From contig WFZW01000065.1 in NCBI GenBank assembly GCA_015489365.1, positions 1-42,339 of the forward strand: a stretch of DNA of 42,339 nucleotides, given 5' to 3'. The stretch is from Deltaproteobacteria bacterium (GTDB taxonomy: Bacteria; Desulfobacterota; Dissulfuribacteria; Dissulfuribacterales; QOAL01). Under the pieces are notes generated by a model. That model was not told the DNA's origin. It saw nothing but the letters and a program-made list of their open reading frames with translations, and searched no databases. The position numbers and the translations under genes are program-made. Each line of letters opens with the position of its first letter. Positions within the stretch are counted from its first letter, which is position 1. Positions 17,983 to 36,227 of this stretch are shown here, piece by piece.

Positions 17983-20325
17983 TCAACGTATGCAGGCTGA
18001 GCGGACCTGCTTCAGGTCTGTTTCCCCGGTAAGCACCTTCCTGATGCCATCCTGTTTCAAGGTGAGCATACCATTTTCCATACCATGCTCCCTTATCTCT
18101 GCAACGCTCGCCTTTTTTTGAATGAGCTTTCTTAGGCCATCATTGGATACCAGCAACTCGTGGATTGCCATCCTGCCCTTATAACCAGTCTTGTTGCAAT
18201 GTGGACAGCCTGTGGGCTTGAACAGGGTGGCCCGCTCCAACAACCCTGGATCCAGGGGCTTGGATGGATTATGCCCATATTCATGGAGTATGAGTTCCTT
18301 TTCCTCGTCACTTGGGGTGTAGGCCGTCTTACATTTCGGGCATAGGCGTTTGACAAGCCTCTGGGCCAGGACACCTAGCAAGGCATCGGCGAAATTGAAG
18401 GGATCCATACCCATGCCGAGCAACCTGGTAACGGTTTCAGGGGCGGAATTCGTATGCAGGGTGGAAAAGACAAGGTGGCCTGTTAAGGATGCCTCGATTA
18501 CGGTATTGGCGGTCTCCTCATCCCTGGTTTCCCCCACCATTATCACATCAGGGTCGGCCCTGAGGAATGCCCTGAGTACCTTTGCAAAGGTGAGCCCTAT
18601 GGCAGGCTTGACCTGGACCTGCCTAAGTCCCTCCTGTACGATTTCAACCGGGTCCTCTGCTGTCCATATCTTTTTTTCAGGCCTATTAATGTATCCAAGG
18701 GCGGCGTGTAGGGTTGTGGTTTTACCTGATCCAGTTGGTCCTACTACCAGTATCAGGCCATATGGCATGCTAAGGAGCCTTTTCATCTCATTGAGGTTTT
18801 CCTCAAGTAGCCCCATCTTGTCAAGGGGCATGGCATCGGATGCGGCTAGTATCCTCAATACGATATCTTCATTGCCCTCGGTGGTAGGCAAGGTGGCCAC
18901 GCGTAGTTCAATAGTCCTGCCGGTTCTGGACCTGAACTTGATCTTGCCATCCTGTGGCAACCTTTTTTCCGCTATGTCCAGATTGGACATGATCTTTATC
19001 CTGGATACGAGCGCCCGTTTATAATTGAAGGGGATATTCTGGTATTTCATACAATCCCCATCGATCCTTAGCCTTACCAAGGCCCCTCTTTTCCCGGTAA
19101 GTGACTCAATATGGATGTCCGATGCATTTCTTAGGAAGGCATCCTCGATAATCTTATTGGCCATTTGTACGACGACGCTATCTGCATCGCTGGCGACATC
19201 TTCATCCTCTTCCTCTTCGGTTTCTTCATCTACTAGCTCAAGCTGTTCGAAGACATCCTCACCATCGCCTCCAACCGAATATTTTCCGTAGAAATAATCG
19301 ATGAATTTATCGATATCCTCCTTCAAGGCCACGGCAAATTCAAAATTTTTGGCCTTGAGTACCCTTCTAATATTATCTATTTTGGTTAGATCGTGAGGGT
19401 TGTCCAGTGCCACAACCAAGACGCCTGCTTCTTCCCTTATGGGGACACAGGCGTTGGAACGGAAGAAGTGTTCCTTTATCCCGTGAATGCAGGAAGGGGT
19501 CCCCCCGACCTCAAGTTCATCGAATTCCACGAATGGGCATCGGTAATATTCACTAAGGGAGCGTCCTATCTCTATGGTGTCAATGTCAAACTGGTTTATG
19601 AGTACATTCTCAATAGTCTTTTTGCCCTGCTTGGCCAGGGCCTTGGCCTGCTCTAATTCCTCTTCGGAGATTATCTCATTTCTTATGAGGTAATAGAATC
19701 TTCCGAATTTTTGAGCGGTTTGAGAGAGATCCTTGAGGCGTTGAGCCGCATTTCTAAATGATGGATCCAGACGGATGATCTGTTCTAGGGCTTCAAGTGC
19801 CTTGGTGACAGCTCCTGTTTTTTCATGGGTCAGGGCCAATTGATAGAGGATCTCCAACCGCTGATCCTTTGAGAGCCGATGGTCATCCAATGCCTTTTCT
19901 AGGTATTCCAATGCGTCGAAGGGCATATCAAGCTTCAAGTAGGATTGCCCTATTTTTGCCCTGATTTCACCTAGTCGGCGCCCGGCCTTCAGTAGGGATT
20001 TCAATTCGTCGATCGCCTCTGCAAGAAATCCGGCCTCTATAAGGCCCATGCAGTTATTATATTCCCGATCGAACTCGTCCTCTTCGGAGTTGGCAGTGGA
20101 ATCCGTTATGCCATTTTGCCGGTGGTCATCGGAATCGCCTTGGATCGCCTTGAGCTGTTCTTCGATCCTTTTTGACAGGTCACTGGGTAGATCATCGCCC
20201 ATCTCCCTCAGAATGTCCTCATAAAGGAGACGGGCCTCTTCCTTCAGGCCATGATGCAGATAGAGTTCTGCCTCTTGTAGTCTTTCTTCAAAGGAATTGG
20301 CAGCAGATAGCTGGCTATCAATCAT
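17983..20325 (-). CDS. GspE/PilB-family ATPase with N-terminal TPR region
   Basis: A cytoplasmic hexameric ATPase that powers type IV pilus assembly or type II secretion. The 780 residues begin with helical TPR-like repeats (about 10-60 and 85-200), absent from ordinary PilB or GspE. Next is the MshE/GspE N-terminal domain (about 205-350), an acidic linker rich in Glu (361-383), then the motor. The motor has the Walker A motif GPTGSGKTT at 529-537, the Asp box around AEDPVE, the Walker B region ADPDVIMVGETRD and the His box HLVFSTLHTN. A tetracysteine zinc site is formed by C662PKC and C707PHC. It overlaps the CheW-like gene by 8 bases, downstream of mglBA. No pilC, pilT or pilin genes are in the window. 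Confidence 0.85.
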   Translation of the reverse strand: MIDSQLSAANSFEERLQEAELYLHHGLKEEARLLYEDILREMGDDLPSDLSKRIEEQLKAIQGDSDDHRQNGITDSTANSEEDEFDREYNNCMGLIEAGFLAEAIDELKSLLKAGRRLGEIRAKIGQSYLKLDMPFDALEYLEKALDDHRLSKDQRLEILYQLALTHEKTGAVTKALEALEQIIRLDPSFRNAAQRLKDLSQTAQKFGRFYYLIRNEIISEEELEQAKALAKQGKKTIENVLINQFDIDTIEIGRSLSEYYRCPFVEFDELEVGGTPSCIHGIKEHFFRSNACVPIREEAGVLVVALDNPHDLTKIDNIRRVLKAKNFEFAVALKEDIDKFIDYFYGKYSVGGDGEDVFEQLELVDEETEEEEDEDVASDADSVVVQMANKIIEDAFLRNASDIHIESLTGKRGALVRLRIDGDCMKYQNIPFNYKRALVSRIKIMSNLDIAEKRLPQDGKIKFRSRTGRTIELRVATLPTTEGNEDIVLRILAASDAMPLDKMGLLEENLNEMKRLLSMPYGLILVVGPTGSGKTTTLHAALGYINRPEKKIWTAEDPVEIVQEGLRQVQVKPAIGLTFAKVLRAFLRADPDVIMVGETRDEETANTVIEASLTGHLVFSTLHTNSAPETVTRLLGMGMDPFNFADALLGVLAQRLVKRLCPKCKTAYTPSDEEKELILHEYGHNPSKPLDPGLLERATLFKPTGCPHCNKTGYKGRMAIHELLVSNDGLRKLIQKKASVAEIREHGMENGMLTLKQDGIRKVLTGETDLKQVRSACIR

Positions 20326-21997
20326 GTCGCCATGCCCTTAAAACAGATTTTACCGTGCACAGGGGAATGGTTTCCTCACCGTTTTTCAAGGTCCCTTCAA
20401 AGGGTCCCTTGACCTCCTGTGTAGGTTTCCATGTCATTTTCCGTGTGCCTTCACTTACAGGTTCAGTATCGGACAGGATCGTGATACCTCTTGAACCATC
20501 GTACATGATTGTCACGATCTTACAGGTACAGTTACCATCATTGTTACCTGCTCCGGCTATAAATTCAGGCTTGATCACAGGGAACTCGAATCGTTTCAAG
20601 ACGTCTTCATCGAGAGCAGCCAGTTGACCCTTGAGCAGGGGCCCTATTTTGGACCACGGCCATTTCTTCAGCCCCTTAAGTGGAAAGGCCGAAAGTGAAC
20701 CCAGCTTTCCCTTCATTGACCAGACCGGAGGACCATAGAAACACACCTCCTTGTCAGGAAAGGCAACCTTCTTTCCACCTAGGCTTATCAGCATAATCTT
20801 GTCCCAAGGTGGTGAAAGTGGCCTTTGTTCAGGGGTATCTGTTGGCATATCGAGGGCCGCAGTATCAGGGAGCCCCAGTTTCTTGCCTGTCAATTTAGCC
20901 AGACGTCTTGCCTCCTTTTCCAGGGTGGACCGTATGCCTTCCTGGAACCTGTGAAGCTTCTCCATCCCTGATGTATTTTTCAGGAGGATTTCTACAGGCA
21001 TTATCTTTTCTATGCACGAGACCAATACATCTAGGTGTTCGTCTAGGACGTGAAGGATCTCATCCTCAGAAGGTGAGGAGGCAATCGATTTAGATTCTGG
21101 TTTGGCTGGACCTTGTAGCTGGGTGGCAGTGTAGGGCAGGGATTCCTCTTTTTTATCACTTACAGATCCGGATTCTTGTGGGTTGTCTGGCATAGAAGAA
21201 AGGGAAGGGGGAGCTTGGACCGTATTGTTTCCTTCTCCATGGTTTTTTAGCTCGATATGTATATCCGTGGCCTTGGTGCCTGGGGTCTTTGTGGGTTCTT
21301 CATCTGTCTCCTCGGGCAGTTCCCCTTCCTTGAGTATCTTTTCAAGTTCCAGGGCAGTGGCATTTAACCCATCGGTCAAATCCTGTGGCAGCGCGGCCCT
21401 GTTGGCCTGAGGTAGTACTGACAGCTGTTTCAGGCCTTCGAGGCCCCTTTTTAATACGACTGGACTGCTGGCAGCTATCGTTTCTGGATGGTCTTCCATC
21501 CTGCTCAGGATATCAAGCATTAAGCGGATGAGGTGTCTGGCTTCGGCGATATCCTTGATGACGGGTTCCGTATTTATACCCTTCAAGGTATCGATTGCAG
21601 CCGCTACCTGCTCAGTGGTAATTTCCCATTCCAGTGTCGATAATTGTTGGTCCAGGGTATCGAGCAACGCGGACAGCTCATCCTTTTCTGCGCTGGTATC
21701 GGGTTTTTCCTCGATTTCGGGTTCGAGTTCTAGCTCGAGTTCCAGGAGGTTTTCCTCTACACCTTCTTCCCCCTTGGATTCAGACGACGGGGCTGGTGGT
21801 GCCAAGATGGAGGGTTCGAGATCTAAATCCGCCTCTGGGGTTATTTCATCGGGCGAGTTGTTCTCTGAGACCTCTTTGACCTCATTTGTCAGGGGATCGA
21901 TCTCTATCTTCCTGGAAGGTTTGAATAGATCATCAATGGTATCTTCGATTTCATCAGTAAGGATGTTGGGGTTGAGGGTATCTTTCTCTTCTGTCAT
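20318..21997 (-). CDS. Acidic protein with a possible C-terminal CheW-like domain
   Basis: A 559-residue protein I cannot name. The first 390 residues are highly acidic and low in complexity (runs of E, D, S and P), with helical stretches such as LSALLDTLDQQLSTLEWEIT. The last 150 residues look folded: IMLISLGGKKVAFPDKEV, then KGKLGSLSAFPLKGLKKWPW, KIVTIMYDGSRGITIL, and a final TIPLCTVKSVLR. The alternation of short strands resembles a diverged CheW or CheA C-terminal fold, but this is weak. I chose the ATG at 21997 because it follows AGGGAG; the frame is open to 22096. It lies between mglA (231-base gap) and the PilB/GspE ATPase (8-base overlap), so a role linking the GTPase switch to the motor is plausible. 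Confidence 0.6.
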   Translation of the reverse strand: MTEEKDTLNPNILTDEIEDTIDDLFKPSRKIEIDPLTNEVKEVSENNSPDEITPEADLDLEPSILAPPAPSSESKGEEGVEENLLELELELEPEIEEKPDTSAEKDELSALLDTLDQQLSTLEWEITTEQVAAAIDTLKGINTEPVIKDIAEARHLIRLMLDILSRMEDHPETIAASSPVVLKRGLEGLKQLSVLPQANRAALPQDLTDGLNATALELEKILKEGELPEETDEEPTKTPGTKATDIHIELKNHGEGNNTVQAPPSLSSMPDNPQESGSVSDKKEESLPYTATQLQGPAKPESKSIASSPSEDEILHVLDEHLDVLVSCIEKIMPVEILLKNTSGMEKLHRFQEGIRSTLEKEARRLAKLTGKKLGLPDTAALDMPTDTPEQRPLSPPWDKIMLISLGGKKVAFPDKEVCFYGPPVWSMKGKLGSLSAFPLKGLKKWPWSKIGPLLKGQLAALDEDVLKRFEFPVIKPEFIAGAGNNDGNCTCKIVTIMYDGSRGITILSDTEPVSEGTRKMTWKPTQEVKGPFEGTLKNGEETIPLCTVKSVLRAWRHD

Positions 21998-22228
21998 AGT
22001 GTTTCTCCCTGAATGAAAAGGGATGACATCTGACCCAGATGAACGAGTCGTCCTTTTTCTTCCTTTTCCGTCCTTGGTCATCTTGTGCCTGTCCATAAAC
22101 GGTCTTTTCGCCTGATCTCGACATCATGGGGAAAATTTTATTCTTTGGGATACTGGCTACATGCCTATGGTAAAATTTTTCAGATGCCTTAACCTCGAGC
22201 GAAAATCCATTTTTCGATAGGCACCAGC

Positions 22229-22843
22229 TTATTTTGCCATCAGGTGCTTTCTGGCCACATGTCGAACCGTCAGTTTACTGATTGCCTTAAGTGTTTCAAA
22301 AACGCCCATGCCCTTGGTGGCTGCTGCCTCGAATGCCATTGTATGTAAGTGACTATTTAGATCCGATTCCAGTTCATCCAACTCCAATGTGGGAATCGGC
22401 GTACTTACGAGATCCCTCTTGTTGTATTGGAGGATGAGCGGGATTTCATTGAAACTTAAATTGTTTTCCATAAGATTTTTTTGTAGGTCCTCAAGGCTTT
22501 CTATGTTTTTCGCCTGCCTGACCCTCAGGGAATCCGCCACGAAAACCAGGCCATCAACTCCCTTGAGGACGAGCTTTCTGGTAGCTTCATAGATTGCCTG
22601 TCCTGGCACTGTATAAAGCTGGATTCGAATGTCGAATCCATTGACCTTCCCAAGATTCAATGGCAAGAGATCAAAAAATAAGGTGCGATCCCCCTTGGTC
22701 TCAATGGTGAGCATCTTGCCCCTGGCACGATCACTCATGGCGTTATATATGTAAAGAAGATTGGTGGTTTTCCCGCACCTGCCCGGTCCATAATAGACAA
22801 TCTTGCAATGGACCTCTTTTTTGCTCAGATCTATGAGGGCCAT
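22229..22843 (-). CDS. mglA: MglA-like Ras-family GTPase
   Basis: A small GTPase that sets cell polarity and controls gliding or twitching motility in Myxococcus-type systems. Of 204 residues, the G1 loop is GPGRCGKTT (19-27). G3 has the MglA-type TVPGQ (78-82) in place of the Ras DxxG. G4 is NKRD at 141-144. The ETKGDRTLFFDLLPL stretch is typical of the MglA switch I region. It starts 2 bases after the MglB-like stop, so the pair is coupled in the order mglB-mglA, as in other bacteria. Confidence 0.92.
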   Translation of the reverse strand: MALIDLSKKEVHCKIVYYGPGRCGKTTNLLYIYNAMSDRARGKMLTIETKGDRTLFFDLLPLNLGKVNGFDIRIQLYTVPGQAIYEATRKLVLKGVDGLVFVADSLRVRQAKNIESLEDLQKNLMENNLSFNEIPLILQYNKRDLVSTPIPTLELDELESDLNSHLHTMAFEAAATKGMGVFETLKAISKLTVRHVARKHLMAK

Positions 22844-22845
22844 AG

Positions 22846-23247
22846 CTAGTTGCAGATTCCAAAGACTTGCTCGATGGTTTTGATAAGTTGGGCTACCCTG
22901 ATCCTTACCAATCCCAATGAGACATCATCGCCAAATATGGTAATAAGTATCAGTGCTGAACCGATCCGGGCGAAATGGATACTGTCCTTTTTCCCCTTAT
23001 GAAACAGCAAAGAGAAGTCGTCTTCTCCTATGAGTTTTGCCATCTGAGAGGTGGCTCCGAAGTTTGCTGCTGCTAGGGCTGCCAGGGATGTGGTGTCGAG
23101 ATCATTACGTTTTTTCCCACAACTGGCGACTATGTTCCCAGCTTCATCAATGAGTAAAACCGTATGCACCCCGGCCTTGATCAAGGACTTGTCTATTTGA
23201 ATCTTTGCCTTTTCTAGAACCGGACCTGTAACTACTAAATCAGCCAT
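22846..23247 (-). CDS. mglB: Roadblock/LC7 protein, MglB-like GTPase partner
   Basis: A 133-residue single roadblock domain. Its profile is a first helix (LEKAKIQIDKSLI), the strand VHTVLLIDEAGNIVASCG, the helix SLAALAAANFGATSQMAKLI, paired strands FSLLFHKGKKDSIHFARIG and SALILITIFG, and a last helix. MglB dimers act as GAP for MglA at the cell pole. Direct coupling to mglA supports the call over other roadblock proteins. It is the first gene of the minus-strand group. Its 600-base upstream region, shared with the divergent HDOD gene, is filled with family A and B repeats. Confidence 0.85.
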   Translation of the reverse strand: MADLVVTGPVLEKAKIQIDKSLIKAGVHTVLLIDEAGNIVASCGKKRNDLDTTSLAALAAANFGATSQMAKLIGEDDFSLLFHKGKKDSIHFARIGSALILITIFGDDVSLGLVRIRVAQLIKTIEQVFGICN

Positions 23248-23320
23248 GATTGATGGTCCCTGCCATGTTCAGGGGATCTTAAACGGGTCAGTAACCCTCT
23301 CCATACCCTGAAAAGTTATT

Positions 23321-23360
23321 ACCTAAACCTTTTGCGGCCCGAGCGTTTGAGGCCGCATCC
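23321..23360 (-). repeat. 3' half of the two-hairpin element, copy A14
   Basis: On the minus strand TGCGGCC pairs with GGCCGCA, followed by AAAAGGTTTAGG, matching hairpin 2 and the end of family A. The first half is not recognisable. It is sense-oriented toward the MglB-like gene. Confidence 0.5.
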
Positions 23361-23634
23361 GGGTCACGAGAACGAATAAATTGTCTTTGTATCCAAGGAA
23401 TAAAGTATATATCTTGGCTTCTGCCCCAGCCTTGAGGCAGGCTTGAAAATTGTCAACACCGTTAGTTTCGTTTTGTGTCCCACCATCGATCTACCCGACT
23501 TATCGGAAAGCTGAGGAAAAAGATAAAAGGGGATACCTCTATTCCCTCAAGTTCGTGACTTTTCCCGCCGATAATATGATAAACGTACGCACCTTACCTG
23601 CCTTTCGATTGGAAGGGGGGATCGGCTGTTCTGT

Positions 23635-23743
23635 GAATATTTTTTATCCGAAAATGCATTTTTGATTAGCCATGGACACACAAGGACATACATGGACAAA
23701 GGCAAGATGTTCCCAGATATGCATTTTCATACTTCACTGTGTC
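23635..23743 (+). repeat. Family B intergenic repeat, copy B2
   Basis: The best-preserved copy together with B1: ATTTTTTATCCGAAAATGC, TTTTTGATTAGCCATGGAC, ATACATGGACAAAGGC, AAGATGTTCCCAG, then TTTTCATACTTCACTG. It is followed 18 bases later by family A copy A11, and both point toward the HDOD gene. Confidence 0.65.
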
Positions 23744-23761
23744 CGTACTGGGAATGGCAGT

Positions 23762-23803
23762 CATCGTGAAAATACATCTCTTGGATAAGGGCTGTGTATT
23801 CAT
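23762..23803 (+). repeat. 5' half of the two-hairpin element, copy A11
   Basis: ATCGTGAAAATACAT, then GGATAAGGGCTGTGTATTCA, matches the first hairpin of copy A3. Hairpin 2 and the usual end are missing. It lies 62 bases before the HDOD start in sense orientation. Confidence 0.55.
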
Positions 23804-23865
23804 ATTAGGAGGTGCGATATTGATTGTATTGGTCACATGAGATTGATTGAGGGGGTTGCCATACC

Positions 23866-24717
23866 ATGAGCATATCCATGGCCAAGAGGCTGGATAAGGT
23901 GGAGGATTTGCCATCCTTGCCCCACACCTTACACAAGGTATTGGAGGGACTCGATAGCGTTTCTGCATCTGCTAAGACATTGGAAGGTATAATTCGTGAA
24001 GACCCGGTGCTTACTGCAAAGATACTCAAGATGGCCAATTCCCCTTTTTATGGAATCCAGGGCGAGGTAAGCAGCATAGCAAAGGCGGTTGTAGTCTTAG
24101 GTTTTGAAGAGGTTCGCAGTCTGGTGATAGGACTTTCGCTCACCGGAGCGTTTGGAGGAGACTTGGGGGTGGAAGAATTCGATGCCCAGAGCCTGTGGCT
24201 TCATTCCATCGGTGTTGCCAAAACGGCCCATATGTTGGCGACCCATGTGAATGGATGCGTGCCGGATGAACTGTTTACTGCAGGCATAGTTCATGATCTG
24301 GGGCGTTTTTTGTTGTGCCTGTATTTCCCAAAGGAATACAAGGTGATCCTTGGGCAGAAAAGGCAAAACGGTCTGCCTCTGTTCAAGGTTGAGGAATCCT
24401 GCGGGCTGAGCCATGCCGAGGCAGGGGCATATCTTGCAAAGAAATGGGCTTTGAGCGATATGTTGGTAAACGTGGTTAGGTATCACCACCATCCTGGTAG
24501 TGCGGGTACCTACTCCGTGCCGGCATCAATCGTCTTTTTGGCCGACGAATTGTGCCATAAATTAAAGATCGGCTGGGATGCTAAGGGTGAAATAGGCACG
24601 GTGTTGGTGCCAAAGGCACTGGGACTTGCCCCAGAGATAATAAAAAAGATTGCGCGTAAGATTAAGAAGGAAAAGGAATCCATAGAGGCTAGTTGGAGCA
24701 AGGTCCTGTCTGGATGA
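23866..24717 (+). CDS. HDOD domain signalling protein
   Basis: A 283-residue protein of the HDOD family, which is related to HD-GYP phosphodiesterases and commonly acts in motility and regulatory signalling. The domain begins at about residue 12 (DLPSLPHTLHKVLEGL). It continues with DPVLTAKILKMANSPFYG and ISSIAKAV-like SSIAKAVVVLGFEEVRSLVIGL, then AGIVHDLGRFLL, which keeps a His-Asp pair. It ends near HHHPG and ASIVFLADELCHK. The C-terminal lysine-rich tail is short. GAGGGGG lies about 11 bases before the ATG. It is the first gene of a run of receiver proteins ending in CheA, which suggests a part in the same pathway. Confidence 0.88.
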   Translation: MSISMAKRLDKVEDLPSLPHTLHKVLEGLDSVSASAKTLEGIIREDPVLTAKILKMANSPFYGIQGEVSSIAKAVVVLGFEEVRSLVIGLSLTGAFGGDLGVEEFDAQSLWLHSIGVAKTAHMLATHVNGCVPDELFTAGIVHDLGRFLLCLYFPKEYKVILGQKRQNGLPLFKVEESCGLSHAEAGAYLAKKWALSDMLVNVVRYHHHPGSAGTYSVPASIVFLADELCHKLKIGWDAKGEIGTVLVPKALGLAPEIIKKIARKIKKEKESIEASWSKVLSG

Positions 24718-24813
24718 ATGTAAACATTCGACGTAGCAGGTGTCCCTTTGTTGAAAGGATAGCTGGCAGACGGCCTTGTTTTCACGGTTTAGGTTACAAG
24801 AAAAGGAGCCAGC

Positions 24814-25854
24814 TTGTCCATCGACAAAAATGCACCGATAAAGACCCTAATAGTTGATGATACTGCCTTCATGCGAAAGGCCCTTACTGAAATACTGTCA
24901 GGGCGCAACGGGATAGAGGTAGTGGGGGTAGCACGTCATGGTAAGGAGGCCCTGGAGATCGCCGAATCGCTTGACCCAGACGTTATAACCCTTGACGTGG
25001 ATATGCCTGTGATGGATGGTCTTACCACCATAAAACATTTAATGGTCAGGAAACCAAGACCTGTTGTCATGGTGAGCGGCTTAGCGGATCATGGCAATGT
25101 TACACTTGAAGCCCTCAGGTTAGGTGCGGTGGATTTCTTCCCCAAGCCCTCAGGTACGATTTCCCTTGACATGCATGAATCCGCCCATGGGTTTGCCAAG
25201 GTGGTGGCAAGGGCGTCAACGATAAATCTTGGTGCCATTCAGAGGGCTAGACTCTCACCAAGATGCGATAGCAAGCCTGTAGAAAAACGGCGACCTGAGG
25301 GGCTTCTCGTTCTTATTGCCCAGGAAGGTGCCAGTGCAAGTTTCATACGGCTCATTTTCAATATAGATCCATTGCACCCAATCTCCATAGTTGCCATCCA
25401 GGCAGTGGCATCTGGGGTCCTGTCATCCTTTTGCAACGCGCTAAACAGGATCGTTCCCTGGGAAATTACAATGGGAAACGGCGCGAAATTGCAGACCGGT
25501 ATGTGTTTTCTGGCAGGGGCAAATAGAGGTCTGCGTATTGTGGGCAATGGAGACGGACCAGCCATTGAAACACAAGATGGTGCAGATGCCTACCGTCCGT
25601 TCCTCTCGGAGGCTGTGGGGCTGTTTGGCCATCGCTGCATGATAGCAATCATGGGAGGGGCCGATGCCGTGGCAATGGAAGGACTTTCGAGGATCACAAA
25701 TAGTGGGGCCTCCATACTGGCCTTGTCACCTGATAGTTGTGTCTACGGACGTCTTCCCCGGGCAGCGATAGAGGCGGGTATAGCCAAGAGCGTGTATTCG
25801 GAAAGTGATCTTTGGAGGGAAGTTGACGCATTTGGCAGGAGGCTAGCTAGGTAG
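24814..25854 (+). CDS. Receiver plus degenerate CheB-like domain protein 1
   Basis: A 346-residue CheB-shaped protein. The receiver domain (about 9-125) has the acidic pair D15-D16, phospho-acceptor Asp61 in TLDVDMP, and Lys111 in FFPKPSG. The C-terminal half (about 163-346) follows the methylesterase fold, but the triad is gone. The GASTGG serine loop reads IAQEGAS, and the QHMP histidine motif reads QAVA. The GMGxDG region is rearranged to MGGADAVA. The late motif VYGRLPRAAIEAG (CheB VYGMPxAAIExG) still proves the descent. The start is TTG at 24814, which follows AAGGAG by 5 bases; no other in-frame Met occurs before residue 20. It is the first of three such genes in a row. Confidence 0.88.
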   Translation: MSIDKNAPIKTLIVDDTAFMRKALTEILSGRNGIEVVGVARHGKEALEIAESLDPDVITLDVDMPVMDGLTTIKHLMVRKPRPVVMVSGLADHGNVTLEALRLGAVDFFPKPSGTISLDMHESAHGFAKVVARASTINLGAIQRARLSPRCDSKPVEKRRPEGLLVLIAQEGASASFIRLIFNIDPLHPISIVAIQAVASGVLSSFCNALNRIVPWEITMGNGAKLQTGMCFLAGANRGLRIVGNGDGPAIETQDGADAYRPFLSEAVGLFGHRCMIAIMGGADAVAMEGLSRITNSGASILALSPDSCVYGRLPRAAIEAGIAKSVYSESDLWREVDAFGRRLAR

Positions 25855-25942
25855 CCTTGTTAATCAATGGGTTTTGGCAGGTTATCTGAGCCCTAACTAT
25901 CATGTATTGGCATTATTACCTATACAAAAAGGAAGGAAGGCG

Positions 25943-27016
25943 ATGACTTCTAGTTATGCTACACAGTGTAGCAAGAAAAGGATAAAGGTCCTTGTAGTTG
26001 ATGACTCACCCCTTATGTGCAGGGTGATAAAGGAGGCCCTCAAGGATGATGAACAAATGGAGGTTGTGGGACACGCATTAAACGGGCAAGAGGCCTTGGA
26101 AATACTCTCTGGGGGTGAGGTGGACGTATGCACCCTGGACGTCTATATGCCCGGGATGAATGGGCTTACCGTCTTGAAAAACATAATGATTCGATTCCCG
26201 CTGCCAACACTTATGGTTAGTGCATTTACTGCTGATGGCTCTAGGATCACCTTTGATGCCCTGAGATATGGCGCAGTGGATTTTTTCCAAAAACCAACCA
26301 GACAAAACGGTGGGGATATCCTGAAACAGGCCGCTGTGTTGCAATCGAGGGTAAGGCGCGCTGCAAGAACCCAGGTGGAGGCCGCTCGTTATCTGAGGCT
26401 AAAACCCATATCAGGTCCCGGATCTTCCAATGGCCATGCGGTCTATCCCTCCAGGGACCAGGCCGCCGTGATAATAAACGCTGGGACCGGTGGATATTCA
26501 TCCATTCTATCCCTTTTGCCAAATATGAAGGCCAGGCCCAGGGTACCTTTGATAGTCTCCATGGGAGTACCAGAAACCTGCCTTAATGCATTTCTGGAAT
26601 ATCTTAAGAAATACGTGGTGTTTGACCTGGTAAGGGCAGGCGAGAGGCAGTATCTGGATGCAGGGAAGGCCTACTTTTTGTGCTCAAATGAGGCGGCAAT
26701 CCTGGAGAAGGAAAACGGCAGGTATCTATTGGTGGTAAAGGACCATCAGGACCTGGCCAGCCATGAAGGCGCTATAGATTTGCTTCTGTTTTCAGCCAGT
26801 GAATATCTGGGCGAGGGCACCTTGTCGATATTTCTTTCTGGTGACGGGACCCATGGCCTGAGTGGGGCCAGGGAGGTGATCAGAAACGATGGCACCGTAT
26901 TGGTACAGCGGCCCGAAACCTGTCTTGCTCCGGAACTTCCACAGGCACTAATAAATGAAATCGACAGTGATATCTGTTCACTAAACGAACTTGCGGCCAG
27001 GGCATTTGCCTGGTAA
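25943..27016 (+). CDS. Receiver plus degenerate CheB-like domain protein 2
   Basis: A 357-residue relative of the preceding gene. The receiver has D20-D21, Asp66 in TLDVYMPGMNG, and FFQKPTR. In the CheB-like half the serine loop is INAGTGG, so Ser is replaced by Gly. The histidine motif is VSMGVP, without His. The aspartate motif is SGDGTHG, with His where Asp should be. The overall fold is still clear from LLLFSASEYLG and TLSIFLSGDGTHGLSGA. Methylesterase activity is therefore unlikely; a regulatory or scaffolding role is inferred. The ATG at 25943 was chosen because GGAAGGAAGG stands just before it. It is 88 bases after protein 1 and 22 before protein 3. Confidence 0.88.
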   Translation: MTSSYATQCSKKRIKVLVVDDSPLMCRVIKEALKDDEQMEVVGHALNGQEALEILSGGEVDVCTLDVYMPGMNGLTVLKNIMIRFPLPTLMVSAFTADGSRITFDALRYGAVDFFQKPTRQNGGDILKQAAVLQSRVRRAARTQVEAARYLRLKPISGPGSSNGHAVYPSRDQAAVIINAGTGGYSSILSLLPNMKARPRVPLIVSMGVPETCLNAFLEYLKKYVVFDLVRAGERQYLDAGKAYFLCSNEAAILEKENGRYLLVVKDHQDLASHEGAIDLLLFSASEYLGEGTLSIFLSGDGTHGLSGAREVIRNDGTVLVQRPETCLAPELPQALINEIDSDICSLNELAARAFAW

Positions 27017-27038
27017 CCGGCGATTGAAAGGTATATCC

Positions 27039-28478
27039 ATGGCCTTCGAGCTTGCAAATAACGGATCTCTGGGTGACCCTCTTATTTCAGAGGGCCATCA
27101 AGGAAGTTTTAAAGGTTGGCTTGAAGGTCTTAGTATGCCCGATATCGTTCAGCTGGCATGCCTTGGGGGGAAGGATTACGTCCTCGAAGCTGAAAGTGGT
27201 ACGCGCAAGGGCTTCATATACTTTTCATCTGGAGAGGTGGTACACGCTTCCACGGCATCATTGGAGGGACAGGATGCGTTCTTTGAGATGATGGCATGGG
27301 GTGAGGGAAGCTTTCATCTGGCGCCAGGCAAAACGGATCGGGTATCCATCGAGGTACCTTGGAACTTTCTTTTGATAGAGGCCCTGAGGCGTAGCGATGA
27401 GGACAGCAGTATTGAAGAAGAGCAGGGACCTACAAGGGTCTTGATCGTAGAGGACTCCAACATGGTCACCAAGGCCCTTAACAGGATATTGAAGGAAGAT
27501 CTCGGGGCCGAGGTCATAAAGATCGCAGAAAATGGTAAAGAGGCCCTTGACATCTTGGCAAACGAGACACCAGATCTTGTTACCCTGGATATCAATATGC
27601 CGGTCATGGGAGGAGATCTGACCTTAAAGCATATAATGGTCAAATCTCCTGCACCTGTCGTACTGATTTCAGGATACCGTGCGGAAGATTTTCCTAAGGT
27701 AATGGAATTCTTGCGGCTTGGCGCGGTAGATTTCATTGCAAAACCGGAAATAGGTGAAAACTGGGATGTGGTCAAGGAAAGACTGCGGAAGCTAGTGAAC
27801 CATGCCAAGGGGTTCAAGATCAAAAATATACGTAGGGCAAGACAGCCCAAGTCACCCCGGATAAAGGCAGAACCAGGGCTCCCTGCCGGCGAGCTGGTTA
27901 TACTCGTAGGTGGTGCCGGCGCCTTGCTGGAGATCCAGAAGATAATACCTGTCTTGTGCCAGAGGGTTCAAGGTTCCATAGTTGTATTTCAGGATATGTG
28001 CCACAATATCATATCGTCCTTTTCCTCCTATCTTGATAGGTATGCACGGCATACGGTTTTACCCCTAGGCGAGGGTGCCCCGTTGCTTAGTAATCAATGC
28101 TGGGTCACGGACTGGCAAGGTTCTTGGGAAATAATTTCCGATGACAACGGTGCAGCCATATCCCAGGTCCAGGCCAATAGCAGGCTTATCGATATGGAAA
28201 ATCTACTCATGTCATCGGCGAATATCTTTAGGGAAAAATTGACCGTTGTAATCCTGAGCGGGGCAGATATCGAAATGGAGATAGGGCTTGAGACCGTGAC
28301 CTCCCAGGGTGGCAGGATCCTGTTGCAGCTTCCAGAGACCTGTTTGTGCCCTCAGCCCATGGAAAAGATCAAGGCCATGGAACTTGAGGATGAATGTTTC
28401 GAGCCGGAAGGATTCCAGGATATGTTTTCAGGCCCTGGGCCTCTGGAAGACAGGCATGGCGAGGATAATCATGGCTAG
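27039..28478 (+). CDS. PATAN (DUF4388) - receiver - degenerate CheB-like protein 3
   Basis: A 479-residue three-part protein. Residues 20-115 form a PATAN/DUF4388 domain: GWLEGLSMPDIVQLACLGGK, GFIYFSSGEVVHAS, AFFEMMAWGEGSFHL. The receiver (about 132-255) has D138 in VEDSN and Asp184 in TLDINMPVMGG. The last part is a CheB-like domain more worn than in its two neighbours: VGGAGAL for the serine loop, FQDM for QHMP, and LSGADIEMEIGL for the aspartate motif. In cyanobacteria, PATAN-receiver proteins are known to act on type IV pilus motor ATPases. A PilB/GspE-type ATPase is encoded in the divergent group here. The gene overlaps the following CheY gene by 8 bases. Confidence 0.85.
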   Translation: MAFELANNGSLGDPLISEGHQGSFKGWLEGLSMPDIVQLACLGGKDYVLEAESGTRKGFIYFSSGEVVHASTASLEGQDAFFEMMAWGEGSFHLAPGKTDRVSIEVPWNFLLIEALRRSDEDSSIEEEQGPTRVLIVEDSNMVTKALNRILKEDLGAEVIKIAENGKEALDILANETPDLVTLDINMPVMGGDLTLKHIMVKSPAPVVLISGYRAEDFPKVMEFLRLGAVDFIAKPEIGENWDVVKERLRKLVNHAKGFKIKNIRRARQPKSPRIKAEPGLPAGELVILVGGAGALLEIQKIIPVLCQRVQGSIVVFQDMCHNIISSFSSYLDRYARHTVLPLGEGAPLLSNQCWVTDWQGSWEIISDDNGAAISQVQANSRLIDMENLLMSSANIFREKLTVVILSGADIEMEIGLETVTSQGGRILLQLPETCLCPQPMEKIKAMELEDECFEPEGFQDMFSGPGPLEDRHGEDNHG

Positions 28479-28836
28479 GGTATTGGTAGTAGAGGATTCA
28501 AGCTTCATGCGCAAACGGATAGCTAAGGCGTTAACAGATGCTGGTCACGATGTGGTAGGGCAGGCCCGCGATGGGGAAGAAGGTTACAAACTCTATCGAA
28601 AGATTAGGCCAGATGTGGTGGTCACGGACGTTACGATGAGAGGTGTGGATGGAATAGCCGGGGCACGGATGATAAGGGACTATGATCCTGAAGCACTGGT
28701 GATCTTCATGAGCCTCGTAAATGATCCTGCGGTAAGATCTGAGGCCGCAAGGATCGGCGCAGAGGGCTTTCTGGCCAAGGATCAGCATGACAGGTTGATA
28801 GAATTGATAGGTAATTGTTGTCGGAAGGCACGATAG
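28471..28836 (+). CDS. cheY: CheY-like single-domain response regulator
   Basis: A 121-residue receiver with no output domain. It has the acidic pair Glu8-Asp9, phospho-acceptor Asp53 in VVTDVTMRGVDG, Thr/Ser at the switch position (FMSLV) and the conserved Lys in FLAKDQ. It is the diffusible-regulator type found in chemosensory systems. It overlaps protein 3 by 8 bases and precedes cheA by 27 bases, so it is almost certainly a CheA target. Confidence 0.9.
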   Translation: MARVLVVEDSSFMRKRIAKALTDAGHDVVGQARDGEEGYKLYRKIRPDVVVTDVTMRGVDGIAGARMIRDYDPEALVIFMSLVNDPAVRSEAARIGAEGFLAKDQHDRLIELIGNCCRKAR

Positions 28837-28863
28837 ACATACCAGGATATCCCCGAGGGCGTT

Positions 28864-31605
28864 ATGAAACAATTGGATCAAGAAATGTTACAGGATTATG
28901 TGATCGAGGCACAGGAAAATTTGCAAGAGCTTGAACCCAACCTATTACTCCTCGAGCAGGAGCCTGAAAATATCCCCCTGTTGAATGATTGTTTTCGAAA
29001 TATGCATAGCATAAAGGGCGCAGCCGGATATATGGGTCTTGAAAGGACCAGCACCCTGGCCCATAGAATGGAAACACTATTTGACCAGGTGCGTCAAGGA
29101 AAGCGGCACCTGGATGAGGGGACAATGAATCTGGCCTTCGAGGCACTGGATAGGTTGAAGAGCCTTGTGGCTGATGTGGCTGAAAAGGGCAGGGAACTTA
29201 CTGATATTTCCAGTATGATAGCCAGGCTCGAAGGTCTGGAGGACGTCCCTGCTAGGCAGGATAGGCAGGAAGCTAGCCCTGTGGAGGATTCATCGGAAAA
29301 CATGGGGGATGACACGATAGTCGAAGTAGACGATGACCAGGAGTTGCTCTGTATATATAGGGACGAGATGAAGAATCTCTACGGAGAGCTTGAGCGTCTG
29401 GCAAACTCGCATGATGCCTCTCTTCATGCCATCAACGGCATTGTCAGGGACATGATAAGGGTGACCAACTATGTTGGAGACCAGGATTTAATGGATGCCC
29501 TGGAGGCCGTTGCTGGATCAATTGACGAGAATGCCACTGCCACTGCTGACAAGCTGGATGTATCAGATATTATCGAACGTATCCATATGATTATCGAAGA
29601 GGGACTCGACATATGCCTTGAATCAGGCCTAGATACATCTGAATCGCAAGATAAGATAGAAGAAGACGATGAATTATATGGGATTTTTCTTGATTTCGTA
29701 GCTGAGGTCTCGGGTCCATTGGCCAATGTCCCAAGTGATCCTGACGAGGAATGGCTTGAGGCATGCAGTAGCGCCATCGAACGCCTCAAGGCCTCGGCCC
29801 ATTATATGGATTATGGAGAGGTACTGGCGATATTAGATGAATGGGGCGAGAGATTAGCTGAAATATTGTCAGAAAGCGGGAATAGTGGAAAACTCGATAC
29901 TGCACCATTAAGAGAACTTTGGCACCGACTTCTAGATTTGCTTCCAGGTCTTTCGGCCAAACTGGATGCACAGGGGCCCGAACCTGGAATGGTACCTAAG
30001 GGTATGGAAAAAACATCAGAAGAAGGCCCCTCTGTAATGGAACTTGAAGAGGCTATCGACGACCTATTTGCCGATGTTGAGACAGGGGAATCGGATACCC
30101 CGTTTGCATCACAAGTCACCAGTAGCCCCTCTAAGGTGCATGAAGCAAGGATTGATCCCTCTAAGAGCGGGGAAGAGATCCCGCCCCAACCTGCCATCCA
30201 TGGATTACATGATAACGGTTCCGCGTCACAGGATGCCGCCAGGAAGGATTCTGCCAATTCTACAAGACCTCGCTCGGCATCCAAGGATCGATCATCAAGG
30301 GGGTCTCAACTTGTAAGAATCGACTTGAACAAGGTCGAGGGGCTTCTTGGGGATGTGGGGGAGCTAGTAGTCCTGCGCTCGGCACTTGTGCAGCTTTCCC
30401 AGGAGATCAAGGGGCTCTATGGCCAGTGGCTTGAAGGACATATCTTGAGTAGCAAGGAACTCAAGCCATTTAAGGGCATAATGGTCCGGCTGTCCGAGCA
30501 TACATCCGCACTGGGCAGGGTAGTCAACCAGTTGCAGGATGGGGTCATGAGGATGAGGATGCTTCCGGTGAGTAGGCTTTTCAACCGTTATCCCCGTATG
30601 GTTCGTGATCTGGCCTTGAAACTTGGCAAAAAGGTTGAGCTTGACATGGAAGGCCTTGAAACAAACCTAGACAAGAGGGTGATAGAACAGATGGCCGATC
30701 CCCTCCAGCATATCATCAGGAATGCCATTGGCCATGGTATAGAACCTCCTGAACTTAGAGAGAAATTGGGCAAACCTGCCGCAGGACGCCTTAGGCTTTC
30801 TGCTCACCAGGAGGGAAATTTTGTCGTTATCAGCGTGATGGATGATGGCAAGGGACTGGACAGGGCTGCTATCCTGGAGAAGGCTGTAAAACAGGGCATA
30901 ATTAATCAGAATATTGGGTTGTCGTTTACAGATGAACAGGTCTGGAACATGATCTTTTTACCTGGGATTTCTACTGCCAGAGAGGTATCGGAAACCGCAG
31001 GTCGTGGTGTAGGCATGGACGTAGTGAGGCGCAATGTGGAAAGGCTGGGTGGAACTATTACCCTCCGTTCACAACAGGGCCAAGGGACCGAGATTCTTAT
31101 CCGTATCCCGCTGACACTGGCCATTATAAAGGCCCTCCTTGTGGGTATTGGCGAGCAGGTAATGGCCGTGCCGCTTGCATCTGTAAAGGAGACATTCAGG
31201 ATCTATCCTGACGAAATCAGTTCCATCGAGGGTTACGAGATTATCTCTGTCCGTCAGGATACGCTGCCACTCATTCGACTGGCAAATGTCTTTAGAGGTA
31301 CCGGGGCCAGCGCCAACCCAGAGAAATTGTTCGTGGTCAGGGTAAAACAGGGTGATATAGAGGCCTGCCTCGGGGTAGAGTCATTAAAAGGCCAGCAGGA
31401 GGTGGTTATAAAGCCGTTGGCAGAATATCTTACGGATCAGCCGGGTTTCTCAGGGGCTACCATTTTGGGCGATGGATCTATTGCACTCATCCTGGATATT
31501 CCAGTGGTTCTCCAGCGGGCGAAGGAGTTTACCTTGCGGCGTCAACAGGTCATGGAACAGGCTTCGATGGACCTGGGGCAGGTTGCAAGCAGGCTCATAC
31601 ATTGA
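28864..31605 (+). CDS. cheA: CheA-type chemosensory histidine kinase with extra HPt-like domains
   Basis: A large CheA of 913 residues. The first HPt domain (about 5-115) has His48 in NMHSIKGAAGYMG. Two further helical stretches (about 155-250 and 270-365) resemble HPt domains that lack the phospho-acceptor: RDMIRVTNYVG and ERLKASAHYMDYG. A 110-residue polar linker follows. The dimerisation domain is at about 483-575 (LNKVEGLLGDVGELVVLRS). The kinase core has the N box IIRNAIGHGIEPPE, VMDDGKGLD and TAGRGVGMDVVRRNVE. It ends with a CheW-like domain (about 755-890). The order is that of CheA proteins in alternative pathways such as Pil/Frz-like systems. No MCP, CheW gene of normal form or CheR lies nearby. 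Confidence 0.92.
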   Translation: MKQLDQEMLQDYVIEAQENLQELEPNLLLLEQEPENIPLLNDCFRNMHSIKGAAGYMGLERTSTLAHRMETLFDQVRQGKRHLDEGTMNLAFEALDRLKSLVADVAEKGRELTDISSMIARLEGLEDVPARQDRQEASPVEDSSENMGDDTIVEVDDDQELLCIYRDEMKNLYGELERLANSHDASLHAINGIVRDMIRVTNYVGDQDLMDALEAVAGSIDENATATADKLDVSDIIERIHMIIEEGLDICLESGLDTSESQDKIEEDDELYGIFLDFVAEVSGPLANVPSDPDEEWLEACSSAIERLKASAHYMDYGEVLAILDEWGERLAEILSESGNSGKLDTAPLRELWHRLLDLLPGLSAKLDAQGPEPGMVPKGMEKTSEEGPSVMELEEAIDDLFADVETGESDTPFASQVTSSPSKVHEARIDPSKSGEEIPPQPAIHGLHDNGSASQDAARKDSANSTRPRSASKDRSSRGSQLVRIDLNKVEGLLGDVGELVVLRSALVQLSQEIKGLYGQWLEGHILSSKELKPFKGIMVRLSEHTSALGRVVNQLQDGVMRMRMLPVSRLFNRYPRMVRDLALKLGKKVELDMEGLETNLDKRVIEQMADPLQHIIRNAIGHGIEPPELREKLGKPAAGRLRLSAHQEGNFVVISVMDDGKGLDRAAILEKAVKQGIINQNIGLSFTDEQVWNMIFLPGISTAREVSETAGRGVGMDVVRRNVERLGGTITLRSQQGQGTEILIRIPLTLAIIKALLVGIGEQVMAVPLASVKETFRIYPDEISSIEGYEIISVRQDTLPLIRLANVFRGTGASANPEKLFVVRVKQGDIEACLGVESLKGQQEVVIKPLAEYLTDQPGFSGATILGDGSIALILDIPVVLQRAKEFTLRRQQVMEQASMDLGQVASRLIH

Positions 31606-31645: not shown

Positions 31646-34009
31646 CTATTTAAGCCCTTTCCTACCGATCTGTGTCATGATATCCATCATCATCCTGATA
31701 TGCTGGGCCTGGTCGATCCTCTTATCGGTAGCAATCCTTTCCCATAGGGATACATCAGACATGTATTTATGACATCCCATGCACGTCCCGCCCTTTCTCA
31801 TGGCATCAAGCTCTTGCTTATTAAATGCCCGACTCAATGGCCAATGCGTGCCAACGGTTACGAGCTGCGTGCCGTTTGCATCCAGAATCTTTGACCAGTC
31901 AAAGGTCAATTGAGGTATCGCTGGGATCTGAATCTGATAGTGACGAGGTATGATCTTATCCGTCCTGGCGTTCATTAAATCTTCTACTACGTTCTTGTCG
32001 TATCTTCCAAGTGTACCACCGGATATGCCGAGCCCCATTGCCTTTGGATCCACATGGCAGGATTCGCATGTGCGGGCCTGTCTCTGCACGGTATGGGGTT
32101 GAACTGGAGACATGTCGATTGCCAGGGGTACCCTTTTTTGGCCAATGAACCTTGCCTCATCCGGGCTCTTTTCAATCCGGTTGTGGACAAGGGTTTCCCC
32201 GTTAGGACCTATTACGGTATAAACTACCTGACATCCCGGCATGAGGGGGGATATCCTACCTTCGCCATTGTAGCCGATAATTGGCACCTCCCAGCGAAGA
32301 TAGGATCTTGATTCTGAAACCTTTCCCGGGGATTCAAGGCCGCTGGTACCAAGCGGGGCATCGGGAGTAGTCCCGTTTTCCATGTGGGCATTACCATTTG
32401 CAGTCCAATCGGTTCCCATGGGTATATGTCCTGCATTTGAGGCATAGCTCACCTTTACGTGGCAGCCATAACATTGGGGGACCCATGATGCATGGCAGCT
32501 ATAACATTCCATCTTGTCCATATGGGTCTTGACCGAGACCATGGCCGTTTTTGCCGACAGGGTCTTCCAACCGTTTCTTATGGCAATATCCTTCAACAGA
32601 GGGACCTTGAAATCCTGTCCCGTGGCAGAATGAAGTATTACGCTGTTGGACCTGCGGATGACGTTACCCAAGGGGTTTCCTCTGGCGCTAAGTATGAAAC
32701 CATCCTCAGGTGCATAGGGAAAGCCGAATTCGTCTTCGGGTCGATTCTTCTTCAGTCCTACACCCCTGGGCCTGTTATTCAAGATCTTTCCAGCTTCATC
32801 CCCGAAACCTATGGGCAACTCCCATGGATAATCCGTGGGGGTCCCGTGGCAATCGGTGCATTCGATTTCTACCTGTGCCAAGGTAGTCCCGGCGATGTTT
32901 CCATCACCATGAACATCGATACTGGTATGGCAATCCTGGCATAAAAGGCCCCCTTTTGGGTTTCCTTTTCGACTCCTGTATTGATGATGAAGGTCGTCAG
33001 AGATGAAAAGATAGGTTTTGGTATGGAGCTTCGGCTGTTTTTTGCCGTGCTTGTCATATGGAGATCCATATGGAAATTCCATCAGGCCCTGGAACGATAC
33101 ACCAATCCGTTTGCCACGGTTATGGCAGGTATTGCAGGTTTCTACAGGGATACCTCCTGTCCTCCTGGTACCAACCAGTCTGTGCTTCAATATGTGGCCG
33201 GGTTCAGTTTTGTCTATGCTTTTATCCTTACCCTCGTAATAGCCATCATTGGCATAAAGAATATGGCAGGCACTGCAACCCATTCCCCTATAATCGCCCC
33301 GCTTTTCCCTGCCACGTACTCCAACGTGACAGCGTTGACATTCATGGCGCTGATAGGTCAAGGCGGCCAAACGTGGGTCTCGTTTGATTTCATTGGGATC
33401 GGCAGAGGGGAGCCTGGTAAGGCTATGGGGATATTGCCTTGGATACTTACCGATCTGTAGCTGCATGTAGTCCTTGTATGCCTTGCTACCTACCATAGGT
33501 ACAGGGCCGTCGGTATCCTTTATTTCATAGTTGCCATAGGGTACTTGGCAGTTTCTAGTCTTCTTGAATCCCCAAGTATGTAAATTGCCTGAGATCTTTC
33601 CAGCTTCGGTGTTCATGAGTGAAAGTTTGACACGGCGGATATAACCTGGATGGCAAAGTCCACAGGTGTTTTGGGCGATCCATATGGAGCCGGGATCAGG
33701 GTAAAAGGTCTTGGGGCCTCCGGCATTTTCAAGGCCCTCTGGTGTACCGCTATGGGCAATGGACTTGACTGAGTTCTCCTTGGGATTGCCGCCATGACAC
33801 ACGACACACCCTGCAGGATCGTCATACTTCATCCCTAGGGCCTTGATGGAGCGGGCCATATTAGAATCAGGCGGCATTATATTCTCTATGCCTTGATGGC
33901 AACCCTTTGTATTACACGCTGCGGTAGCAATTTCGGCTAGCATGTAGGTGCTGGGCAAAAATAGCAATGCTATTGTTAAAATATGTAAAAAGTAAGCCCT
34001 CTTATCCAT
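31646..34009 (-). CDS. Periplasmic multihaem c-type cytochrome (12 haem motifs)
   Basis: A 787-residue protein with an N-terminal signal peptide (hydrophobic residues 6-24, likely cut near ATA-A). It has eleven CXXCH motifs (Cys at 68, 116, 224, 245, 292, 357, 384, 502, 513, 648, 743), plus one CX4CH, CNTKGCH at 32-38. There is no C-terminal anchor, so it is soluble or surface-attached. The haems fall in clusters separated by a 110-residue gap at 390-500 and a 130-residue gap at 518-647; the latter looks like a beta-rich domain. I do not recognise a named family. It stands alone, convergent with cheA, with no quinol oxidase or porin next to it. A promoter-like TTGACA and repeat copy A9 lie in its leader. 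An electron-transfer role is certain; the donor and acceptor are unknown. Confidence 0.88.
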   Translation of the reverse strand: MDKRAYFLHILTIALLFLPSTYMLAEIATAACNTKGCHQGIENIMPPDSNMARSIKALGMKYDDPAGCVVCHGGNPKENSVKSIAHSGTPEGLENAGGPKTFYPDPGSIWIAQNTCGLCHPGYIRRVKLSLMNTEAGKISGNLHTWGFKKTRNCQVPYGNYEIKDTDGPVPMVGSKAYKDYMQLQIGKYPRQYPHSLTRLPSADPNEIKRDPRLAALTYQRHECQRCHVGVRGREKRGDYRGMGCSACHILYANDGYYEGKDKSIDKTEPGHILKHRLVGTRRTGGIPVETCNTCHNRGKRIGVSFQGLMEFPYGSPYDKHGKKQPKLHTKTYLFISDDLHHQYRSRKGNPKGGLLCQDCHTSIDVHGDGNIAGTTLAQVEIECTDCHGTPTDYPWELPIGFGDEAGKILNNRPRGVGLKKNRPEDEFGFPYAPEDGFILSARGNPLGNVIRRSNSVILHSATGQDFKVPLLKDIAIRNGWKTLSAKTAMVSVKTHMDKMECYSCHASWVPQCYGCHVKVSYASNAGHIPMGTDWTANGNAHMENGTTPDAPLGTSGLESPGKVSESRSYLRWEVPIIGYNGEGRISPLMPGCQVVYTVIGPNGETLVHNRIEKSPDEARFIGQKRVPLAIDMSPVQPHTVQRQARTCESCHVDPKAMGLGISGGTLGRYDKNVVEDLMNARTDKIIPRHYQIQIPAIPQLTFDWSKILDANGTQLVTVGTHWPLSRAFNKQELDAMRKGGTCMGCHKYMSDVSLWERIATDKRIDQAQHIRMMMDIMTQIGRKGLK

Positions 34010-35463: not shown

Positions 35464-35690
35464 AGCTGCGGCATCTTAAGAGCCTATTTTGTTTCCGTAT
35501 CCGTGTGGCCTTGTATGTATGCGGTTCCAAGCGGCCGTTGGGCCCCTTTTCGTATCTTGAGTATTTGAAGATACAAGTTAATACGTGTCATGTGACCACA
35601 TGTAGACAACAAATTTTTAGCTTTGATCTTGTGATCAGTTGGGCCTTTGCCCTGTAGGCCATCTCAACAGGCAATATTGGCAGGAAATCC

Positions 35691-36001: not shown

Positions 36002-36084
36002 GATGCCCTCCATGGCACTCGGGTACAGGGATCTGCCAGGGCCCTGGCAGGTTATCTATCAACATGATAGCATTTCTTGTCTGG

Positions 36085-36168: not shown

Positions 36169-36227
36169 CCTTTATGCTGCATTCACAAGGTGCGTACTAG
36201 TATGTACGGCCACAGTACCTGTAGGTA

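Follow-up and report, generated by a model that had tools for sequence, protein, structure and literature searches.

A conserved mglBA, pseudo-CheA and PilB-type ATPase operon divergent from a CheA gene cluster in Dissulfuribacterales: a candidate chemosensory pathway to the type IV pilus

When genes for the small GTPase MglA, a pilus-type assembly ATPase and a CheA kinase lie side by side, do they encode one pathway, and what would this pathway control? The question is raised by contig WFZW01000065.1 of a Deltaproteobacteria bacterium (assembly GCA_015489365.1; order Dissulfuribacterales, QOAL01), which was analysed over its 42,339 nucleotides, referred to below as the window. Open reading frames and Pfam domains define ten genes at positions 17983–31605 (13.6 kb), arranged as two divergent operons. 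The left operon encodes, in this order, MglB, MglA, an acidic protein of 592 residues and a PilB-type ATPase of 780 residues; the right operon encodes an HDOD protein, three response regulators (RR1, RR2 and the PATAN-containing RR3), a single-receiver CheY and CheA. The open reading frame list and the Pfam matches agree with the original prediction, a note made from the sequence of the window, as to the number of genes, their order, their divergent arrangement and their domain contents. We consider it fairly likely that the block encodes the central part of a single chemosensory pathway, which acts via the MglA polarity switch to control a type IV pilus motor. No description of this operon was recognised in the titles, abstracts and passages of open-licence papers.

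Conservation of the two operons and their receptor

Gene order was compared in 41 genomes of the order, comprising 42 loci, of which 38 hold mglA. Nine loci were dropped, either because mglA is missing (L067, L068, L074, L078) or because the locus ends 2.3 kb or less upstream of this gene (L069, L071, L073, L075, L077), leaving 33 loci that can be judged. Both divergent halves are kept in 23 of these 33, representing 10 of the 11 families; cheA is present in 22 of them, and the remaining one is cut by a contig end. Because the gene order is kept across ten families, its conservation is more than chance. The other ten loci include three with a CheA remnant (one accompanied by RR2), one with the HDOD gene only and six with no part of the CheA half. 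The remnants occur in genomes with 0, 0 and 1 matches to methyl-accepting chemotaxis proteins (MCPs) (G039, G040 and G041, respectively) and sit at the usual place beside mglB. They consist of the N-terminal 266–293 residues of CheA, with the His changed to Gln; they have lost the kinase and kept the first domain together with another conserved segment. These remnants hint at a binding role of the N-terminal part of CheA toward the mgl/ATPase half.

The left operon is not confined to Dissulfuribacterales. Within the order the acidic protein is found in 42 of 46 genomes. Across the phylum its profile matches 97 of 395 genomes, of which 81 lie outside Dissulfuribacterales, and many of these matches cover only the P1-like part described below. 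Twenty loci were fetched from these 81 genomes; among the 61 unfetched genomes many match the P1-like region only. Sixteen of the 20 loci hold mglA (L232, L241, L242 and L243 are without it in the fetched stretch), and in 13 it lies directly beside the gene of the acidic protein. The complete series of mglB, mglA, the acidic protein and the tetratricopeptide repeat (TPR) ATPase is found in seven of the 20 loci, and three more have the last two genes together with mglBA within 8 kb. The HDOD gene is divergent beside mglB in four outside loci, and in G343 two genes for receiver/CheB-like proteins and a cheA gene are found divergent there. The claim that both gene groups form one conserved unit is thus supported by the divergent arrangement in 23 of 33 loci and by the recurrence of the mgl, acidic protein and ATPase operon outside the order. 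To judge from these neighbourhoods, the unit is probably older than the order.

The original prediction had pointed to the absence of MCP and CheR. Indeed neither is encoded inside 17983–31605, but an MCP and a CheW are encoded elsewhere in the same genome, where a gene for an MCP of dCache-HAMP type lies beside cheW on contig C46. Genes for MCP and CheW are found directly beside the TPR ATPase gene in G027 and G020, and an MCP gene alone in G021, that is, in three genomes of three families. The presence of MCP genes next to the CheA group in other genomes had been put forward as an argument against the coupling; an MCP gene beside the ATPase gene, however, supplies the missing input and does not refute the coupling. 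Over 29 loci the MCP gene has cheW beside it in 23, thpR in 17 and the PilB-TPR gene in 3, and the sister genome G001 contains a larC-cinA-thpR-cheW-mcp neighbourhood without the ATPase gene. The arrangement suggests that the block formerly included the MCP-CheW pair.

The phyletic patterns of the two genes are nearly identical. Of the 46 genomes, 32 have the block CheA and 33 the MCP, and the patterns agree in 45 (Fisher p 1.4e-10, without correction for shared ancestry). For this count the block CheA was taken as present when its best piece reached at least 414 bits; other CheA classes scored no higher than 294 bits, and the CheA of G020 was counted from two contig pieces. The single disagreement is G017, in which the acidic protein is not found either, so that this discrepancy likely reflects an assembly gap. 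The other absences of CheA and MCP are confined to families f2 and f5 and to a single genome that is 66% complete. In the genus of the window a gene for a periplasmic binding-type protein, with the family read by eye, lies beside the MCP gene (L101:1-849 and L108:9250-10167) and perhaps encodes a ligand-binding partner. The MCP gene of G001 (L108:6693-9083, G001:C31) is interrupted by one in-frame stop codon (TAA).

The proteins of the block

The gene of the acidic protein (20318–22096, minus strand) ends in an overlap of its stop codon with the start of the ATPase gene. The protein is acidic, as predicted, with an isoelectric point of 4.81, and it does not match any Pfam or NCBIfam family. 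Its description as CheW-like does not follow from profile comparison, since hhalign gives probabilities of only 1.7% with CheW and 6.2% with CheA, a weak result that counts against a CheA-type assignment; it is the predicted fold that matches CheA P5 and CheW. The AlphaFold2 model has a mean pLDDT score of 71 and contains long acidic stretches of low confidence. In VIA comparisons, the modelled helical bundle at residues 131–261 aligns with CheA P1 (Z 14.8, 2.7 Å over 123 residues), and the modelled β-domain at residues 427–592 aligns with CheA P5 (Z 11.8) and with CheW (Z 10.1). Two long helices form a modelled hairpin at residues 344–403, between these domains, which from order and shape may correspond to P3. 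Helical VIA matches up to Z ∼13 can be unspecific, and a designed repeat protein scored 14.1; the P1-like match being near this range, equal weight is given to the P5-like match and the order of the domains. In Foldseek, the eight best matches of the model are all chains of CheA or CheW (E 8.6e-05 to 3.4e-03). In addition, one of ten scanned homologs from elsewhere in the phylum reaches the Pfam CheW cut-off (27.4 versus 23.5 bits), and a second homolog scores 18.2 bits, below the cut-off. Pfam does not detect HATPase_c in the acidic protein, and the model contains no P4 segment. The P1-like region is devoid of a conserved His; the only His columns common to at least 8 of 30 rows are 354 and 382. 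On the strength of the model, we favour reading the acidic protein as a chain of CheA type that has neither kinase nor phospho-acceptor, that is, a pseudo-CheA.

The N-terminus of pseudo-CheA contains a helix of the type xxAIDxLF. By a strict pattern the AIDxLF motif is present in 30 of 30 sequences from the order and in 13 of 16 from outside, versus 7% of shuffled segments, and the same motif occurs in the linker of CheA (13 of 15, versus 9% of shuffled segments). An earlier, narrower pattern had matched 34 of 39 pseudo-CheA rows and 7 of 22 CheA rows, with three matches elsewhere in CheA remnants. The FliM protein of the window's own genome begins with MTQVLSQDEIDALLGG, which is the basis for reading AIDxLF as a CheY-docking motif; the motif of FliM binds phosphorylated CheY. 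AIDxLF persists, however, in genomes without the block cheY (rows L042 and L044), and a partner in the mgl/PilB half is therefore at least as likely as CheY. A search of the PDB with the AIDxLF peptide found nothing. From its recurrence in both proteins, the motif appears to be the best lead for a docking site shared by pseudo-CheA and CheA.

The GTPase and ATPase of the left operon retain their active-site residues. In MglA (204 residues; 22229–22843, minus strand; Pfam Arf, 4.2e-07) the GKT of the P-loop and the N, K and D of the NKxD motif are present in 34 of 34 orthologs, and of the putative catalytic residues Arg53 is kept in 33 and Gln82 in all 34. The role of such an intrinsic catalytic Arg and Gln in MglA is treated in passages of PMC4316618. 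MglB (133 residues; 22846–23247, minus strand) matches Pfam Robl_LC7 (3.9e-13) and scores 58.5 bits with the NCBIfam MglB model, under its cut-off of 200; it is likely the GTPase-activating protein. The ATPase (17983–20325, minus strand) carries N-terminal TPR (TPR_2, 2.5e-07) and MshEN (7.4e-16) regions in front of the T2SSE domain (1.4e-120). Its Walker A Lys is present in 38 of 38 orthologs and the zinc-type Cys residues in 36–37 of 38, the remainder being gaps. Two genomes of family f5 contain a second, diverged ATPase gene of the TPR type, L184 (G022:C6) and L186 (G036:C275), with no mgl gene detected nearby. Another ATPase of the window's own genome (L100:8918-10801, G000:C99) shows an MshE-type cyclic di-GMP-binding motif and a sub-threshold PATAN match, both N-terminal.

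All genes of the right operon are on the plus strand. The HDOD protein (283 residues; 23866–24717; Pfam HDOD 3.7e-55, HD 1.5e-12) has kept H113, H143, D144, H183, H207 and H208 in 20 of 20 rows and, from these residues, might be an active HD hydrolase. RR1 (346 residues; 24814–25854) and RR2 (380 residues; 25874–27016) each combine a receiver with a Pfam CheB_methylest domain, to which RR3 (495 residues; 26991–28478) adds PATAN (DUF4388). CheY (121 residues; 28471–28836; 4.3e-23) is a single receiver. The phospho-accepting Asp is kept in RR1 (20 of 20 rows), RR2 (21 of 21), RR3 (20 of 20) and CheY (16 of 16). In the CheB-like domains, the catalytic His is absent from RR1 in 19 of 20 rows, RR2 in 21 of 21 and RR3 in 20 of 20, and in RR3 the Ser is replaced by Gly in 20 of 20. 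With the Ser-His-Asp triad lost, RR1–3 are not methylesterases, and the alignment of the catalytic residues confirms the earlier view of the three domains as pseudo-enzymes.

CheA (913 residues; 28864–31605) matches Pfam Hpt, H-kinase_dim, HATPase_c and CheW; Pfam finds one Hpt and no Response_reg domain. Its layout comprises P1, two further helical-bundle segments, a linker with an AIDDLF motif, and P3-P4-P5. The P1 His, P3, P4 with its N and G boxes, and P5 are present, and His48 and the kinase boxes are kept in 18 of 18 rows. In a model of the N-terminus the helical segments beyond P1 span residues 157–248 and 260–337. These may be two extra HPt-like bundles; the fold comparison mostly covered P1.

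The two operons share the intergenic region at 23248–23865. The original prediction called it repeat-filled, which did not hold up: apart from one tandem repeat of 28 bp, the 618 bp contain only a few imperfect repeats of short length. Tandem Repeats Finder, a repeat search, a promoter scan and Rfam produced only weak, chance-like matches, with no Rfam family above threshold in the gap. Roughly 65 bp at about 23474–23540 are nearly identical to the sister genome G001, their surroundings being less so. On the other side of the right operon, convergent to cheA, the minus strand encodes a 787-residue protein with many CxxCH motifs, of multihaem cytochrome type (31646–34009).

Output of the pathway and alternative explanations

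The genes and their active-site residues, the synteny, the co-occurrence with the receptor and the presence of the system in genomes without a FliG match are all read from the sequences. We infer from them every protein contact, the flow of phosphate, the pilus as the output and the control of the pole in the following scheme. A membrane MCP with its CheW, as encoded on contig C46, would recruit CheA, which would autophosphorylate and pass phosphate to CheY and the three receiver/pseudo-CheB proteins. These would act on a second module of MglA-GTP and MglB, pseudo-CheA and the TPR-bearing ATPase. Pseudo-CheA would dock in the array via its P5-like domain and keep the MglA/PilB module nearby, much like FimL does for Pil-Chp, and MglA-GTP would bind the TPR part of the ATPase, comparable to SgmX in Myxococcus, so that pilus extension is switched on at one pole. 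Rather tentatively, the kinase-less CheA may be a structural member of the array, with its P5-like domain placed in the CheA/CheW rings and its AIDxLF helix and P1-like bundle holding MglA/MglB and the TPR ATPase.

Several observations count against a single pathway of this kind, and three other explanations were weighed against it. The statement that there is no MCP and no flagellar switch partner is misleading: as to the MCP it holds only within the window, and genes for the flagellum lie to either side of the block (fliK, flgD and flgE at 4149–8947; fliW to flgI at 34987–42327). These genes, together with fliW, csrA, flgL and flgK beside cheA in G027, would suit a CheA half that is an ordinary flagellar chemotaxis branch and lies beside the mgl/pilus operon by chance. 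CheA is also correlated with FliG across the 46 genomes (28 with both, 9 with neither and 9 that disagree; p 7.6e-4). A sigma-28-like site, TCAAGTTC-N12-GCCGATAA, is located upstream of the HDOD gene at 23547–23574 (plus strand); of the 21 intergenic regions examined, G001 has the site as well and the remaining 19 lack it, and so it belongs to the window's genus only. Yet FliG, found in 33 of the 46 genomes, is kept without the block CheA in G017, G022, G029, G036 and G045, the last four of which are without MCP as well, and CheA and MCP are kept without a FliG match in G004, G025, G031 and G033. Among these, G004 is 98% complete; its only MCP and its only CheA both belong to this system, and it also has PilM and two PilT-family genes. 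The window's own genome, moreover, has other CheA clusters with CheW, CheR and CheB. Since genomes without a FliG match keep the block, a pilus output is more likely; as far as gene content tells, the flagellum is not needed for the system, and we regard a mere flagellar branch as quite improbable.

The ATPase could instead power another filament or a secretion pseudopilus, with MglAB and CheA controlling that machine rather than a retractile type IV pilus. It scores almost equally with the PilB and GspE models (508 versus 499 bits) and passes neither cut-off; the curated PilB equivalog TIGR02538 is missed at 508.3 versus 675.65 bits, and the protein is therefore called PilB-type, not PilB. 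No pilC or pilin gene was noticed beside its gene in the window. A second orphan ATPase of the same genome, TfpB-like and encoded on contig C70, could be the true PilB, which leaves the TPR ATPase and this protein as two candidates for the pilus. On the other hand, the closest PDB match of the TPR ATPase is PilB of M. xanthus (3jc8), from a type IVa pilus, and PilT-family genes are found in 44 of the 46 genomes. The complete genome G023 has a pilMNOPQ operon and a pilT region, both without PilB. The ATPases of GspE (type II secretion) type in the window's genome and of MSHA-like type in G023 have operons of their own, and another filament as the output seems distinctly unlikely. Only slightly less so is an arrangement of two separate modules, in which MglAB, pseudo-CheA and the ATPase are self-contained and the CheA half regulates something else, such as gene expression via HDOD and the pseudo-CheB domains. 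It would explain that whole lineages have lost or reduced the CheA half, which is gone in six of the 33 loci, represented by HDOD only in a seventh and a remnant in three, that in the eleventh family (G028) it is unlinked and found elsewhere, with no cheY detected there, and that several loci outside the order have mglBA and pseudo-CheA without a detected CheA half. Given these losses, the mgl/PilB half can work without the CheA half. Two separate modules, however, fit less well with the divergent synteny throughout the order, with the array-type P1-like and P5-like domains that make pseudo-CheA itself chemosensory in kind, with the AIDxLF motif common to it and the CheA linker, and with the CheA remnants of the three MCP-poor genomes, which stay at the same place.

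Relation to known chemosensory systems

The proposed pathway to the pilus motor resembles the Frz and MglA/MglB/RomR system of Myxococcus xanthus, which likewise comprises a CheA-type kinase, response regulators and MglAB. According to passages of PMC3441718 and PMC7668184, the Frz kinase acts via response regulators on MglAB and thereby sets where type IV pili are active; its action on MglA runs through RomR (passages of PMC3441718 and PMC4316618). In Myxococcus mglA is not close to the genes of its partners, as described in part of PMC4316618, whereas here they form one block, and the C-terminal receiver of FrzE (described in part of PMC3441718) has no counterpart in the block CheA. Unlike in Frz, a kinase-less CheA and a TPR-bearing PilB-type ATPase are encoded together with mglAB. 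SgmX is a TPR protein that stands between MglA-GTP and PilB; its TPRs bind MglA-GTP, with an effect on the formation of pili (passages of PMC7668184). In the present block, by contrast, TPR region and ATPase form one protein.

Pil-Chp with FimL, from Pseudomonas and Acinetobacter, is similar in that an array of MCP, CheW and CheA steers type IV pili. FimL is homologous to the N-terminus of ChpA and keeps PilG near the pole, and PilG recruits FimX and PilB (passages of PMC10519157 and PMC9596432). The parallel to FimL is one of analogy only, and unlike FimL, pseudo-CheA also has a P5-like domain. ChpA carries a receiver and nine or more phosphotransfer domains, as given in part of PMC12632253, compared with the single Hpt found by Pfam and no receiver in the block CheA. 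Differing from Frz and Pil-Chp in the tested features, the system probably works like them.

The combination of PATAN and receiver beside pilus-control genes recalls cyanobacteria, in which PATAN response regulators act on PilB1. Here, unlike in the cyanobacterial proteins, PATAN and receiver are fused to a pseudo-CheB domain. The mgl/PilB half persists without such a protein at the locus in several genomes, and PATAN is therefore not essential to that half. The proximity of MglA genes and PATAN genes has been noted earlier (passages of PMC4316618).

How an array reaches the pilus motor has yet to be explained for Myxococcus and Pseudomonas, whose components are scattered over the genome or connected by several hubs. 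Conserved neighbourhoods here allow the receptor, the kinase, the receivers, the GTPase switch, the adaptor and the motor all to be read, and the genomes without receptor and kinase domain, or without a FliG match, are natural experiments that separate a pilus output from a flagellar one. If pseudo-CheA is indeed a member of the array, the array itself would serve as a polar platform for switching the pilus motor. The mglB-mglA-pseudo-CheA-PilB operon recurs across the phylum, and the pathway, if true, would therefore represent a widespread class of flagellum-independent chemosensory output that has not yet been named. For the host group, mostly uncultured bacteria of the sulfur world, it would be a conserved system that steers crawling by means of pili.

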